A stretch of 64,000 nucleotides of DNA from Bryobacteraceae bacterium (GTDB lineage: Bacteria > Acidobacteriota > Terriglobia > Bryobacterales > Bryobacteraceae), in the NCBI GenBank assembly GCA_025056455.1, contig JANWVY010000002.1, positions 730,737 to 794,736 on the forward strand. The letters run 5' to 3'. The first letter of the stretch is position 1. Every line of letters starts with the position of its first letter. Under the pieces are notes generated by a model. That model was not told the origin of the DNA, ran no database searches, and worked only from the letters and a program-made list of their open reading frames with translations. Below, piece after piece: positions 54,943 through 63,795 of this stretch. The position numbers and the translations under genes were made by a program.

Positions 54943-56757
<1,815 letters not shown>

Positions 56758-56773
56758 TGGGAGAAACCTCTCT

Positions 56774-58066
56774 TCACCATGGCGTGACAAACTCCCAGTT
56801 CGGACCCCGGAACAGTGTGCCGATCACGATTAGACCGACGTTAAACAGGGCGAAGGTGAGAAACAAGGTGTTCGCCAGCAAGCGCTCCTTGGCAAACCAA
56901 CGGCCTACGCCGTGAGGGCTGCGATCCAGATAAGGGACCAAGAGAAGCAAAAGCACTTCGAGCGCGGGAATGCCCACCCCTCCCCAGAAGGCGGAGTAGC
57001 TAACCAGCTCTTGTAGGCCGAGAAAGTACCACGGGGCCTTGGCCGGGTTGGGAGGATGCAAAGCGTTGACGGGCTCCTCAAGAGGCGCATGGAACAAGAG
57101 GGATACAACCAGCACTGCAGCGAGAGTAATGACAAAGACAAACAGCTCGGCGGTCAACAGGTGCGGCCAGCTGAAAACGGTGTTGTCAGGGACATTGCCC
57201 ACCTTGACAAACGGTCCCCGCACCAGGCCCATGAAGCCGAAGCTTTGTTTGCCGGCTGGGGGCGAGACGAGCTTGACCGCGATTTCGGAGGCCCCAGGCG
57301 CGACTTCCGCCTCCGGCGGCCGGGACAAGCCGCCGTCCTTGCGAATTCGCCAAAAATGGATCGCAATCAGCAAGGACATGAGCAGAGGCAGCACGACGAC
57401 ATGCAGCACGTAGAAGCGCAGAAGCGCCTCCTGACCCACGACGTTGTCGCCTAACAGGAGGAATTGGATCTTTTGCCCGATGAAGGGCGCATAGGTGGCG
57501 ATCGTGGCCCCGACGGTAATGGCCCAGAAGGCCAGCTGATCCCACGGCAAGAGGTAGCCGGTGAAGCTCGAAAAAAGGGTTAAGAGCAGCAACAACACAC
57601 CAATCACCCAGTTAAATTCGCGGGGCTTTTTGTACGAACCGGTGAAAAAGACCCGGCACATATGCAAGAAGACGACGATGACCATTCCATGCGCGGCCCA
57701 GCGGTGCATGTTTCTGAGGAAGGTGCCGAAGGCGACCGAGCCTCGCAGATCCAGCATGCGGTCGTAGGCTTGGTCGGTTGATGGGACGTAGTAGAACATC
57801 AACAACACGCCGGTGACGGTGAGAATCACAAACAAGAAGAACGACATCAGCCCCAGTCCGAGGGTGTAAGTGGGCTTGAGCGTGTGCCGGTTCACCTTCA
57901 CCGGGTGAATATGCAAAAAGAAGTTCGAGAAGGAGGTTTGTGCCTGGCCGAGCTCGGAACTAGGCAGGGGGTGGCGAAACACCGAGCTCCAGAGATTCCG
58001 CGGAAGCTGCCGGAGGACGCTCGACAGGCTGGTGTCGTTGGAGATTTTATCGTGAACCGCACTCAT
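56774..58066 (-). CDS. Cytochrome b of a bc-type complex (full-length)
   Basis: A 430-residue protein with the eight-helix pattern of cytochrome b (b6 plus subunit IV fused). Haem histidine pairs are in [19 protein letters not shown] and [20 protein letters not shown]. The quinol-site region reads [16 protein letters not shown], corresponding to the PEWY segment of mitochondrial-type proteins with a changed motif. ATG at 58066 overlaps the Rieske stop by four bases (ATGA); the longer open frame to 58270 is inside the Rieske gene. It oxidises quinol and hands electrons to the Rieske cluster. Confidence 0.92.
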
Positions 58067-58521
58067 ACGGTGTAATAGGTTCCCGGCTTGATTTCCACGC
58101 TCGTGTCCACTTCGAGCTCTCCGTTGGGCGCGAGCTTGACTTGATACCACGGCAGAGGCTTGGGAGCGGGCCCGCCCGTGACGTTTCCATCTTGGTCGTA
58201 GCGCGAACCATGGCAGGGGCACGAGAAGCCGGTGTCCGAGACGGCCACAATACAGCCCAGATGCGTACACGTGGTTGAGATGACGGCCACCTGATTGCCC
58301 TCGCGTGCTACGCAGATACGTCGCTGTTCGATGGCGATGCGCGAACCGGGAGGAAACTCCTCCGGCCTTCCGATGGAAAAGCGGCTCGGCGCGCCGTAGG
58401 TGGCTCGCGGCTTTAAGAACACGAAGTTCGCTAGCGCGCTAATGACGGCTGATCCGAATAAGGCCACGCTGGACACCCAAGTCAGCAGGCTACGTCGTGG
58501 AACCTCTTTCGATTCCTTCAT
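58063..58521 (-). CDS. Rieske [2Fe-2S] protein of the bc-type complex
   Basis: A 152-residue membrane-anchored protein. The leader [20 protein letters not shown] holds a twin arginine and doubles as membrane anchor. Cluster ligands: CTHLGC (85-90) and CPCHG (101-105), with both cysteines for the disulfide. The final [11 protein letters not shown] is typical. It starts within the last 32 bases of the CcoS-like gene and ends overlapping cytochrome b. Confidence 0.94.
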
Positions 58522-60492: not shown

Positions 60493-60691
60493 AAGCCAAC
60501 CGGACAGGGTTTTACAGCGCCTTGGGGGCGGGCTGAGCATTCTTTCTGATGGTTCCATGAGCCGGGCCGTGGTTGGAGGGAGTGGCCAAGAAAACATTTC
60601 GCAAGTGATTTGTTTTATCCACAGGTCTTCCACTGAGGATTCGCTCTAAGGTACTGAAAACAAGCAAAATCGAGTTCAGTTGAAATTCTTG

Positions 60692-60720
60692 TTGCAATTC
60701 GTTTTTGGATTGACTACAAA
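60692..60720 (+). promoter_or_regulatory. Sigma70-like promoter in front of the structured RNA
   Basis: TTGCAA (60692-60697), a 17-bp spacer and TACAAA (60715-60720). Each hexamer matches the consensus at four of six bases. Predicted transcription start is near 60727, just before the 5' strand of the RNA closing stem. The local region is more AT-rich than its surroundings. Confidence 0.5.
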
Positions 60721-60740
60721 AGCGTTTCAGGCCAAGATGA

Positions 60741-61410
60741 GGGTGGTTCCAAGAGGCACGCGGAACAGCGAGCTGGACGGAACGTAGCGGACCTGGAACG
60801 ATGATCCACCGGCTAGGGTGACACTCAGACGGACGGTGGGGAGCGAAGGGAGATCGGGCGTTTCGAACCGGCAAGCTCGACGAGAAGCGGTCCGGGAGAG
60901 CGCGAGCATCGGCAGGTGGCAACACCTGGTGCGGTGCCGCCCGAAAGGGTGGATCCTGAGGGGCGAAAATCCCGAAGGGGAGCGGCTTCCGGATTGGAGC
61001 TTGTCGCCAAAATGCCACGTGCAGGCAACGGGTTGGGCGCGCGGCACACCGTAAGGTGAGTCGAAAAGTGACCAAGCCTCACAACCGCGTGGGGCGCGGA
61101 AGTGCCTGGACCGAACGGGCTTGTGGCGAGCATTTTGGGGTTGCGAAGCGCTACGCCAGGACCGCTAGACCCGACTAGGGTGAGGGCGAAAGCCGTAGTC
61201 CTTGTTGGCGAGGGAAAGGCGGGCGCGAGCAGCCGGTTTCGGTCAGTCTGGTGAGCAGGCGGGCTTGGATGCGATGAAGCGCAGTCGTCCAAAACGGCTG
61301 CGGGGAGCAGAAGAGAAGACGCCCAACCGGACTGGCTGCCAGTTCACGCCGGGTTAACACGGTGGGTGGACAGGCTGGGAACGTGGGTCACTTGGAACCA
61401 TTTTTCTTTT
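60741..61410 (+). ncRNA. Large structured non-coding RNA of about 660 nt, class not identified
   Basis: Ends pair perfectly: TGGTTCCAAG (60744-60753) with CTTGGAACCA (61391-61400), followed by TTTTTCTTTT. Inside, plus-strand hairpins with GNRA loops include CAGGTG-GCAA-CACCTG (60913-60928), CCGCCC-GAAA-GGGTGG (60937-60952), CACC-GTAA-GGTG (61047-61058) and GGC-GAAA-GCC (61185-61194). Others are CCACCG/CGGTGG (60806-60811, 60834-60839), CCGCG/CGCGG (61085-61099), AGGAC/GTCCT (61158-61162, 61198-61202), CTGC/GCAG (61298-61310), and AACCGG/CCGGGTT enclosing ACTGG/CCAGT (61325-61355). A long-range stem joins GGC-AAGCTC (60870-60878) to GAGCTT-GTC-GCC (60997-61008). No protein frame here looks real. 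It lacks RNase P, tmRNA, SRP and group II domain V signatures. Confidence 0.72.
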
Positions 61411-61441
61411 GTTCTCCTTTCCCCCTCGAATTCCCCCCGAA

Positions 61442-63049
61442 CTAGCCTTGAAGAAGTGAGGAGATGGGCGTTTCGGTTTCAGCGAGCTCCCGCAAAAAAG
61501 ACTCCTTTTCTTCCCGGGCCATGTTGAGCGCGGTTTCTAGAAAGAAACCGTAGCAGCCAGCCCCGAGGGCGGCAAGAGCTCCAACGATGGCATAGAAGAG
61601 GCTGTTGCTTTCCCAAACCTCCCGGGCGAAGTAGGCAAAGGCAAAAGGCGCGCCAAGAAGGGGATAAATCAGGAGGAGCAAGAAACGGAAGCGGCCCGGA
61701 TTTCCCCGCCTCCAGCTCCGGTTGGGATCGGATGGCCTCGGGTATTTCAACGAGCTCCAATTTCCGATTCCCAGCAGATATACAAGGATTGTCAGCGAGA
61801 CAAGATAGCCGTCCAAAACGGCCTGCCAGGACTGAATGAGGCCGGCGAGAAAACAAACCACCGTGATCATCCCGAGCTCGAAAACAACCAGCGCTACGGC
61901 GGCGATGTTCTTGGCGATGACGACGTCGCCGAAACCGACCGGCGCCAGAAAATACCATGCCGTTGCGCCACGGTCAAAACCGAAGTAATTCCAAATCAAG
62001 GTGTCGCTGAGCAGCAAGATGGCATAGACGCAGACGATCACGAAAAACCGGTCCGGGGAGAAGCTGCCGCGGTAGCGCATGGGGAACCAAATCAAGACCC
62101 CGAACGTGAATCCCATAAGGAACAGCAGACGGAAGGCTGGGGAGCGGAACAGGGAACGAAGTTCCTTCTCTACCAACACAGCCAGTGGATCGCGGAGCCA
62201 GAGATGCGGCCATTGAAACAACCAGTCGGTCCAGCAAGCAGTGGCTGCGGGCTCGGCGCGGGCTCGCGCGGCGTCTTCGTCAAAGCGGAGTCCTTTTTCA
62301 AACATCCAACGGCCGAATGCATAGGAAGCCGCAAGCCAGCCTATCATGGCGATCCAGTTGCTCCAGACTAGGTCGCCTGTTACCAGATGGGCGGTCGCTG
62401 TCCAGGGCCAGACTGCGCTCGGGACCGAGCGCCAGAGCTCGAAGAGATGGTCAGAGCGCTCAACTAGCAGAGCAAGTTGCGGGACCGTGGCAAGCAGCGC
62501 GAGCAAAAAGACGATCCATTCGCGCGTTTTGTTTTGGGAAAAAAACCGAATCAACGTCTGGCGCACGCCGGCGGCCAAGAACAAGTTGAAGGCTAGAAAG
62601 GGCAAAAAGAACCCTGCGAGCCAGGCGTTGAGCACTGGACTCAGAGCCAAGCCCAGGCTCATTCCGCTCAGAAGAATCAGCATCTCAAGGCCGTTGCTGA
62701 AGCGCAGCAGCAGCTCGAGCTGAAAGAGTTCGGAGTGGGGAATAGGATAAACAAGGAGCTTTTTAATTTCGAGTGAAGCCCCCGTGCTGACCATGAGGAC
62801 GGGCAGCAGCTGCCAGTAGAGCAAAGCGATCATGAGACCGCCGGCAAGAAAACTGTAGGCGCGTTCACGGTCCGTTGTTTCGCTTAGAAAGAGGACGGAT
62901 GCGACCGCACCCAGAATCCACAGTCCGTACCAGACGAGGCTGCCAACGGCTGCAAGAAGCAGGCTTCCGCGGCGAGCGCGGGGTAACACGTTGCGCCAGC
63001 TGCGCCACTGCGCCCAGAGAATGGCCCGCGCTTGAAGGTTTAAAGCCAC
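61442..63049 (-). CDS. ABC-2-type transporter permease
   Basis: A 535-residue membrane protein with about twelve helices in two halves (for example WYGLWILGAVASVLFL near 40-55 and FFVIVCVYAILLLSDTLIWNY near 330-350). The layout, paired with a separate ATPase, fits ABC-2 exporters. It starts with GTG at 63049, overlapping the ATPase gene end by ten bases. The transported molecule is not predictable. Its stop is 31 bases past the U-tract of the structured RNA on the opposite strand. Confidence 0.8.
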   Translation of the reverse strand: MALNLQARAILWAQWRSWRNVLPRARRGSLLLAAVGSLVWYGLWILGAVASVLFLSETTDRERAYSFLAGGLMIALLYWQLLPVLMVSTGASLEIKKLLVYPIPHSELFQLELLLRFSNGLEMLILLSGMSLGLALSPVLNAWLAGFFLPFLAFNLFLAAGVRQTLIRFFSQNKTREWIVFLLALLATVPQLALLVERSDHLFELWRSVPSAVWPWTATAHLVTGDLVWSNWIAMIGWLAASYAFGRWMFEKGLRFDEDAARARAEPAATACWTDWLFQWPHLWLRDPLAVLVEKELRSLFRSPAFRLLFLMGFTFGVLIWFPMRYRGSFSPDRFFVIVCVYAILLLSDTLIWNYFGFDRGATAWYFLAPVGFGDVVIAKNIAAVALVVFELGMITVVCFLAGLIQSWQAVLDGYLVSLTILVYLLGIGNWSSLKYPRPSDPNRSWRRGNPGRFRFLLLLIYPLLGAPFAFAYFAREVWESNSLFYAIVGALAALGAGCYGFFLETALNMAREEKESFLRELAETETPISSLLQG

Positions 63050-63795
63050 TCTAACGCTTCCCGGCGCCGTTCTCCGCCGATGGCTCGTACAAACAGGTCC
63101 TCGAGCGTTTCGCCGCCGAGCCGCAAGTCGGCCATCGAGCTTTCCATAATGAGCTTGCCTTGGTGAATAATAGCGACGCGGTCACAAAGCCTTTCGACGA
63201 CCTCGAGCACATGAGAAGTGAGAAAGACGGTAGCCCCGCGTCGCACTTGTTCAAGGAGCAGGTTTTTCATCATCCGCGCTCCCACGGCGTCGACCCCTTC
63301 AAACGGCTCATCCATCAAAAACAGCTCGGGCCGGTGGATCATCGAAGCGGCCATGGCTAAGCGTTTACGCATTCCCTTAGAGTACTCGCCCACGAGCTGG
63401 CCGGAAGCGCCATCGAGCTCAAAAAGGTGCAACAATTCGACGGCTCGCTCGCGAGCGATCGAACGGGCAAGACCGTACATGCGGCCGACGAATTGGAGAA
63501 ATTCCAAGCCAGTGAGTTGTTCAAACAGCAGCGTTTCGTCTGGCACCAGGCCGATGCGTGCTTTGATCTCGTTTTCGGCCTGGGGCATGGGAAGGCCGAG
63601 AATTTCGATGGCGCCCGAGGTAGGGGGTGCAAGCCCCATGAGCATCTTGATGGTGGTTGTTTTGCCGGCGCCGTTGGGGCCAAGGAATCCGAAAAAGCAG
63701 CCCCGAGGTACGGTGAGATTGAGGCCGTCCACGGCCGCTTTTGCTCCATAAAGCTTGCGCAGCTGGGTGATCCGGATGGCGGGCAGGCTGTCCAT
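63040..63795 (-). CDS. ABC transporter ATP-binding protein
   Basis: A 251-residue ATPase. Walker A GPNGAGKTT (39-47), signature segment GEYSKGMRKRLAMA (near 135-148), Walker B LFLMDEPFEGVD and switch histidine in FLTSHVLEVVE are all intact. Its ATG overlaps the stop of the upstream hydrolase gene (TAATG at 63797-63793), and the permease start overlaps its 3' end. It powers the ABC-2 permease encoded next. Confidence 0.93.
   Translation of the reverse strand: MDSLPAIRITQLRKLYGAKAAVDGLNLTVPRGCFFGFLGPNGAGKTTTIKMLMGLAPPTSGAIEILGLPMPQAENEIKARIGLVPDETLLFEQLTGLEFLQFVGRMYGLARSIARERAVELLHLFELDGASGQLVGEYSKGMRKRLAMAASMIHRPELFLMDEPFEGVDAVGARMMKNLLLEQVRRGATVFLTSHVLEVVERLCDRVAIIHQGKLIMESSMADLRLGGETLEDLFVRAIGGERRREALEWL

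Follow-up and report, generated by a model that had tools for sequence, protein, structure and literature searches.

The window, by which is meant the whole stretch of 64,000 nucleotides of DNA that was analysed, carries on its + strand a structured RNA gene (60745..61408) that represents, with near certainty, a real family of large structured RNAs absent from Rfam. These limits are those of the inferred transcript, whose 3' end is approximate, and they are based on homologues and covariation. What is new is the family itself, the loose group of large ornate RNAs being already known; the original prediction had likened the RNA to this group, a guess that is supported here, and both the size and the palindromic loop justify its comparison with OLE, GOLLD and ROOL. 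The existence of the family, its promoter motif, the covarying structure, the anatomy of kink-turns (k-turns) and the palindrome were established by computation; transcription, Mg2+ folding and dimerisation are inferred only, and any function is conjectural. The preferred explanation, given a probability of about 0.7 as a combined mechanism and without any cellular role, is a self-folding, stand-alone RNA that would dimerise via a kissing loop.

Homologues and covarying structure

The signals carried by the window sequence on its own are only suggestive, and the comparative data decide. The ten-base pairing on which the original prediction relied (60744-60753 with 61391-61400) is present and exact; taken as a lone observation it is weak evidence, an exact 10-nt inverted repeat with arms at least 300 nt apart being found also in 12 of 100 shuffles of 60600-61500. 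The arms at the predicted ends do pair, but the 5' end of the RNA had to be corrected, the transcript probably starting at about 60745, an inference made without transcript data. The four named hairpins with GNRA loops (60919, 60943, 61051 and 61188) all exist in the window copy, but their conservation among relatives is uneven: the place of 61188 carries GNRA in 73/89 copies, the segment of 61051 has it in only 25/86, and the loops at 60919 and 60943 fall in a stretch left unpaired by the family structure. The window copy, 655 nt long from GGUUCC to GGAACC, contains six hairpins with GNRA-type loops, a number equalled in 10 of 500 shuffles. Compared with shuffled sequences, its fold stability has a z of -5.7 on the + strand and of -2.3 on the - strand (20 shuffles each).

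The observation of this RNA is solid because relatives exist. BLASTN recovered the region, complete or fragmented, from 46 of 101 genomes. At E<=0.001, a model of the 5' domain (R1) matches 143 of 237 genomes of the same taxonomic family, which corresponds to 58 of 76 genera and to 96 of 148 high-quality genomes, and a model of another domain (R2) matches 145 of the 237 genomes and 97 of the high-quality ones. In one genus (g42), R2 matches 14 of the 19 genomes listed and R1 only 5. At this threshold 94 (R1) and 92 (R2) of the 237 genomes remain without match, and whether the RNA was lost there, is too diverged or was missed is left open. Three genera (g5, g50 and g284) have no genome among the matching rows of either model; loss, strong divergence or a filter miss are all conceivable in their case. 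When the order was sampled (100 genomes), 53 matched, namely 51/80 in the same family, 2/2 in a second family and 0/18 in a third one. A phylum-wide sample of 396 genomes gave strong matches in two only, both of the same family; the weak hits, five with R1 (E 0.006-0.008) and one with R2 (E 0.003), were rejected as being about what chance would produce for 396 genomes. The pattern of the 3' end was listed for 80 contigs, of which 70 have Acidobacteriota-type titles (Bryobacterales, Bryobacteraceae, Solibacteraceae), 8 are Lactobacillales and 2 are apparently mislabelled. R1 was run on 21 of the 80 and matched 13, the two mislabelled-looking ones included; none of the 8 Lactobacillales contigs was matched by R1, and they were set aside. 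The two odd contigs, titled Arcobacter and Acidimicrobiia (L134 and L157), carry the RNA and are probably mislabelled bins. As far as searched, the family has been seen only in the Bryobacterales (Acidobacteriota), and many of its carriers are soil acidobacteria.

The genome of the window has a single copy. Some genomes of the same family have two or more, and among the matches listed the number is mostly one or two with few exceptions. Two R2 matches lie 1.27 kb apart in one genome (G662:C66:38737-40101), perhaps as tandem copies, and two single-contig genomes (G592 and G593) each have one R1 match but two R2 matches.

No Rfam family (4227 searched at the gathering threshold) matched over the window RNA. 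The best permissive match over the RNA was c-di-GMP-II, with 18.4 bits against a cut-off of 53.5. On the loci of ten relatives, the same search found only two tRNAs, both outside the RNA, and on two further loci (L268 and L073) nothing near the cut-off. OLE, GOLLD, ROOL, HEARO and raiA are all present in Rfam. No paper recognised as describing this RNA was found in the literature searched, supplements being outside the search.

Comparative analysis was performed on 59 loci (the window genome included) and on 40 more fetched from diverged or new genera. Both ends could be located at 53 of the 59 loci, 50 copies longer than 560 nt entering the first alignment, and at 38 of the 40, L247 and L272 being left out. 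The resulting 91 copies have one architecture in common and measure 492-735 nt, with a median of 597 and with 82 copies within 570-640 nt. The main alignment comprises 89 of them, without L049 (493 nt) and L087 (492 nt). RNAalifold, applied to 50 and then to 89 copies, gave a multi-branched structure, the helices of which delimit successive domains on the + strand of the window: a 5' domain hairpin that holds k-turn module m1 (60772..60872, also the subject of model R1), a domain with module m2 (60878..61006), a domain that carries m5 in relatives (61008..61137), the window copy being without the G.A pairs at 61044/61100, a domain with module m3 and the GNRA loop 61188-61191 (61141..61232, supported by the k-turn core in 73/89 copies, by the loop and by pair counts), a domain with module m4 (61240..61338) and a 3' hairpin with a palindromic loop (61342..61371).

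A tree-aware covariation test detected 21 significant pairs (E<0.05) among about 169,000 column pairs, and all 21 belong to the structure. This test is not R-scape: it uses a G statistic with average-product correction, and its null alignments were obtained by reassigning the substitutions inferred along the tree to columns drawn at random. The null is broad-tailed and only 21 of 185 predicted pairs are significant. When pairs are ranked by covariation, all of the first 20 lie in the structure, as do 45 of the first 50 and 79 of the first 100. In the R2 domain, the paired cells amount to 88.8%, against 67.6% after shuffling and at most 46.1% after sliding, and 30 of 31 pairs show changes on both sides, the structure being derived from the same alignment. 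The alignments and columns used for the structure and the k-turn counts were chosen after inspection, and the tree comes from the same alignment. Homologues with covarying stems, the absence of which would have refuted the large-RNA reading, do exist. No significant covarying pair was found outside the secondary structure, so that a second inter-chain contact is unsupported; tertiary contacts were sought by covariation and none was significant.

The two ends of the RNA are joined by a terminal stem whose arms are GGUUCCAAG (60745..60753) and CUUGGAACC (61391..61399), both on the + strand. All nine pairs of this stem can form in 88 of 91 copies, of which 80 are identical, and compensatory changes do occur, as GGCUCC/GGAGCC in two copies and as GGUUCCGAG/CUCGGAACC in two others. 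Three copies of a single diverged genus (L237-L239, genus g42) use a shifted register of 14 bp, UCCAGGRUUYACGG with CCGURAAYCCUGGA, in which R and Y co-vary with their partners across 534-600 nt, as read from the sequences. In these three copies the RNA begins with AGUUCCAGG, and they belong to an early branch or to a fast-evolving lineage. Downstream, the T-rich run announced for the window is found at 61401..61410 (+), the probable end of the transcript, and at least 7 T are present in the 12 nt that follow the RNA in 85/91 copies. Folded locally, only 22/91 copies have 6 or more of their last 9 nt paired. The U-tract comes directly after the terminal stem, and for this reason the stem probably doubles as an intrinsic terminator hairpin; the terminal stem itself may be the terminator, although this is an inference and termination is untested.

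Probable kink-turn modules and the palindromic loop

The pattern NNN-GA-N-CC ... GG-N-GA-G recurs within the RNA. In the standard k-turn, as described in PMC5061560, a C helix and an NC helix flank a 3-nt bulge and the G.A and A.G pairs that come after it. This core is met, for modules m1 to m5 respectively, in 85/89, 84/89, 73/89, 61/85 and 60/85 copies, and the corresponding means after permutation of the rows are 0.92, 0.85, 0.77, 0.43 and 0.19. It follows from these means that m4 and m5 keep their anatomy through sequence change and that m1 and m2 are merely conserved; these two yield little covariation evidence, permuted rows scoring nearly as high. The scan also passes strands taken from different modules (m2 with m1, 79/89), the strands being alike, but the helices of such mixtures do not fit. 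A strict single-sequence rule was abandoned: it gave on average 2.8 candidates per copy (0.57 in shuffled sequences) but missed modules and counted chance stems, and it was replaced by the column-wise counts given above.

In the window copy (+ strand), m1 spans 60799..60843, with C60799, a bulge at 60800-60802 and G60803-A60804 opposite G60841-A60842, and m2 spans 60952..60981 (G1b 60952, G2n 60980). Module m3 (G1b 61168, G2n 61210) has a 4-nt bulge there and m4 (G1b 61276, G2n 61305) a G.G as its first NC pair. With m1 present, extra hairpins directly 5' of m2 and m5 lost, this copy meets the standard definition only in part. Across the family, the second C-helix pair of m1 is formed in only 30/88 copies, a weak C helix. 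RNAalifold has no notion of k-turns, yet in m2, m4 and m5 its whole-RNA fold leaves unpaired exactly the positions expected for the bulge and the G.A pairs, and the domain fold does so for m3; the whole-RNA fold pairs m1 and m3 otherwise than in a k-turn. All considered, the presence of real k-turns in this RNA is likely.

The nucleotides that are published as controlling k-turn folding were also counted. In m1 to m5, the 3b:3n pair is Watson-Crick in only 1/89, 1/89, 1/89, 3/87 and 3/85 copies. Either 3n=G or 3b=C, but not the two together, is found in 85/85, 83/83, 70/73 and 56/61 of the copies with a core for m1 to m4. PMC4382518 gives the rule, also found in PMC8191799, that metal ions alone suffice for folding when the 3b:3n pair is not Watson-Crick and has 3n=G or 3b=C, and that a C:G pair at -1b:-1n helps. 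C:G is the commonest -1b:-1n pair in the modules of this RNA. In m1, m2 and m5, U.G is the most frequent pair at 3b:3n (80/89, 74/89 and 44/85). GU pairs are called poor folders in the accessible text of PMC4382518, and no measured value for U.G was found there; the U.G pair fits 3n=G, yet this remark tempers the inference of Mg2+ folding.

The alternative that survives best, although it remains on the unlikely side, is an RNA-protein particle like that of OLE, in which k-turns or other parts bind protein and the RNA has no function without it. Large conserved RNAs are often part of such particles, and this was counted in its favour. K-turns are sites of the L7Ae family, and OLE has a k-turn for which YbxF/OapC is needed (PMC9723947, in part). 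This OLE criterion, a k-turn protein of the YbxF/OapC type in the host, is not met: PF01248, the L7Ae family, was found in 0/237 genomes of the family, the controls being positive in 7/14 cases, Bacillus subtilis included. The idea of an L7Ae partner is thereby left unsupported, a partner of another protein family not being excluded, and the lack of an L7Ae-family match is consistent with protein-free folding. Also against a particle are the ion-folding type of the 3b:3n pair in nearly all core-bearing copies of m1 to m4 and the absence of a constant neighbour gene, the commonest one within 3 kb being found at 29/93 loci.

The 3' hairpin provides an argument for assembly of the RNA with itself. 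Its apical loop, GUUAAC in the window (61353..61358, + strand) and a candidate kissing loop, is a perfect six-base palindrome in 77/89 copies, with five different palindromes: GCAUGC (61), GCUAGC (12), GCGCGC (2), GUUAAC (1, the window) and UCUAGA (1). The palindrome rate is at most 28% at any other column and 1.3% for the background of all hexamers. By tree parsimony, the loop changed 18 times; 10 of these changes produced a perfect palindrome, which in 8 cases replaced another perfect one. Among the 12/89 imperfect copies, 6 retain an inner four-base palindrome and 3 are self-complementary with G.U; of the others, L077 has GCUAGC elsewhere in a longer hairpin, beside the column, and L241 and L253 have none. 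Since self-pairing of a short loop is impossible inside a single chain, the selection of palindromes points to pairing between two copies. Palindrome switching was used likewise for the kissing loops L9.3 of OLE and L21a of GOLLD (PMC12286853, in part). The RNA is therefore likely, though a little less so than it is to contain k-turns, to dimerise through this loop, a proposal inferred from palindrome switching without any oligomer data.

A ribozyme, the structure of which would serve a catalytic centre, is a doubtful reading. It draws on the size and the elaborate structure of the RNA, and catalysis has been suggested for OLE as well (PMC11332333); the search of Rfam, ribozymes and introns included, gave no match and the comparisons suggest no cleavage site.

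A probable stand-alone chromosomal gene

The promoter-like hexamers noticed upstream of the RNA are shared by most of the family. In the window they are TTGACT (-35 element, 60710..60715, + strand) and CAAGAT (-10 element, 60733..60738), separated by 17 nt and ending 6 nt before the start of the RNA. The motif TTGACn-N16-19-nAnnnT precedes the RNA in 85 of 90 copies, one of the 91 having too little upstream DNA, with a 17-nt spacer in 68 and a distance of 6 nt to the start in 80. With a rule of 5-8 nt for this distance, the motif is found in 81/90 copies and at 1/1820 random positions of the same loci. The copies show no open frame whose length stays constant, the longest + strand ORF varying from 39 to 137 codons across the 91 copies; this coding check considered ORF length only and no finer coding test.

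In the window, the upstream neighbour of the RNA gene is a sulfatase gene (PF00884, 59008-60492, + strand). Its other flank (61442-63795, - strand) is occupied by a convergent pair, an ABC ATPase gene (PF00005) and a 535-aa ORF which has no Pfam match and looks like its permease. Further away (54943-58270, - strand), a gene with four cytochrome c stretches adjoins a cytochrome b gene (PF00034, PF13631), the pair being probably a respiratory complex. Among relatives, neighbour families vary and none is constant; the sharing of the commonest family at 29/93 loci suggests a common ancestry of place and no obligate partner, and neighbour genes were dropped as a clue to function.

That the RNA might be a cis-acting leader or a riboswitch for the next gene is compatible with the 34/85 loci at which the nearest downstream ORF, picked mechanically with a minimum of 120 aa, is on the same strand, but this ORF is on the opposite strand at the other 51/85, the window among them. 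These opposite-strand ORFs, the promoter motif and the non-constant neighbours together make a leader or riboswitch very unlikely. A stand-alone, trans-acting gene is the best explanation. An origin from a mobile element, an intron or a phage has an equally slim chance. GOLLD and ROOL are often phage-borne, which was counted in favour of such an origin, as were the two or more copies of some genomes; no convincing match was obtained in phage (50,697) and plasmid (72,556) records, the best E being 0.05, the exact 3' pattern was not found in viral contigs, and a neighbour gene is shared at 29/93 loci. A diverged housekeeping RNA, namely RNase P RNA or tmRNA, would account for the strong promoter motif, the paired ends, the chromosomal location and the one or two copies mostly seen per genome among the matches listed, but it is the least credible reading of all and is largely refuted for these two RNAs (6S and SRP RNA being outside the search), as their Rfam models have no match in the window, exceed the cut-off in 30/31 (RNase P RNA) and 28/31 (tmRNA) genomes, with both located elsewhere in the genome of the window itself, and the third family of the same order has no match to the RNA (0/18).

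Proposed mechanism and comparison with known large RNAs

The self-folding, stand-alone RNA preferred here can be described as a series of predicted steps. A promoter of the sigma-70 type would start the transcript at about 60745, as inferred from the motif. The RNA would fold into a multi-branched body with both ends forming one stem, and this terminal stem, together with the U-tract, would probably act as an intrinsic terminator having the whole RNA as its 'loop'; if the stem is read in this way, transcription would end only once the 5' and 3' ends have met. Up to five k-turns would bend the body, their folding by Mg2+ alone being deduced from published rules, and two copies may join via the kissing loop, a palindrome of six bases close to the 3' end. 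The product would most likely be an RNA-only dimer, a scaffold or a catalytic body, and its cellular task is not known. The most complete version of this proposal, a chromosomal RNA that folds in Mg2+ by means of four or five protein-free k-turns, with its stem as terminator and with an RNA-only dimer or higher assembly as product, is tentative and has somewhat less than an even chance of being correct in every part.

Large ornate bacterial RNAs are few and their functions are open; the present family, with its strong covariation, enlarges the group by one class. It leads to two sharp predictions, kinking in Mg2+ only and dimerisation dependent on the palindrome, both testable in vitro with one transcript, and it constitutes a natural test of the number of k-turns per RNA in hosts without a detected L7Ae-family protein. 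The Bryobacterales have cultured members.

The demonstration of large oligomers made of RNA alone is recent (PMC12286853, in part). The same text describes OLE as a dimer that has a palindromic kissing loop, and GOLLD and ROOL as protein-free assemblies in which symmetric kissing loops are among the contacts; raiA is reported to be monomeric and HEARO to bind IsrB. The criterion used for homo-oligomers of large RNAs, a symmetric kissing loop with palindrome switching, is met by the present family. It resembles OLE in its length of about 600 nt, its wide conservation in its hosts, its k-turn and its palindromic, putatively kissing loop; it differs from OLE in having no Rfam match, in its hosts, which are Acidobacteriota and not Gram-positive bacteria, in the absence of a constant neighbour gene, and in several k-turn modules with no L7Ae-family match in the host genomes. 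GOLLD and ROOL share with it a large, ornate build, whereas the present RNA has no Rfam match, is chromosomal without phage match and offers only one candidate inter-chain contact. The raiA motif RNA and HEARO are comparable as large structured bacterial RNA classes, from which it is distinguished by the lack of an Rfam match and of a constant partner gene. The Solibacter-1 motif was listed in 2010 from Solibacter usitatus only, with uncertain RNA status and no Rfam number (PMC2864571, in part); a contig titled Candidatus Solibacter usitatus carries the RNA (L173), and an overlap of the two is not excluded, their sequences being uncompared. At the level of the modules, the closest known system is the Kt-7 type of k-turn, as defined in the available parts of PMC5061560, PMC4382518 and PMC8191799. 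The 3-nt bulge, the G.A and A.G pairs, the C:G pair at -1b:-1n and 3n=G are shared with it; in contrast, a single RNA of about 600 nt gathers here up to five such modules, three of which have U.G most often as their third pair.
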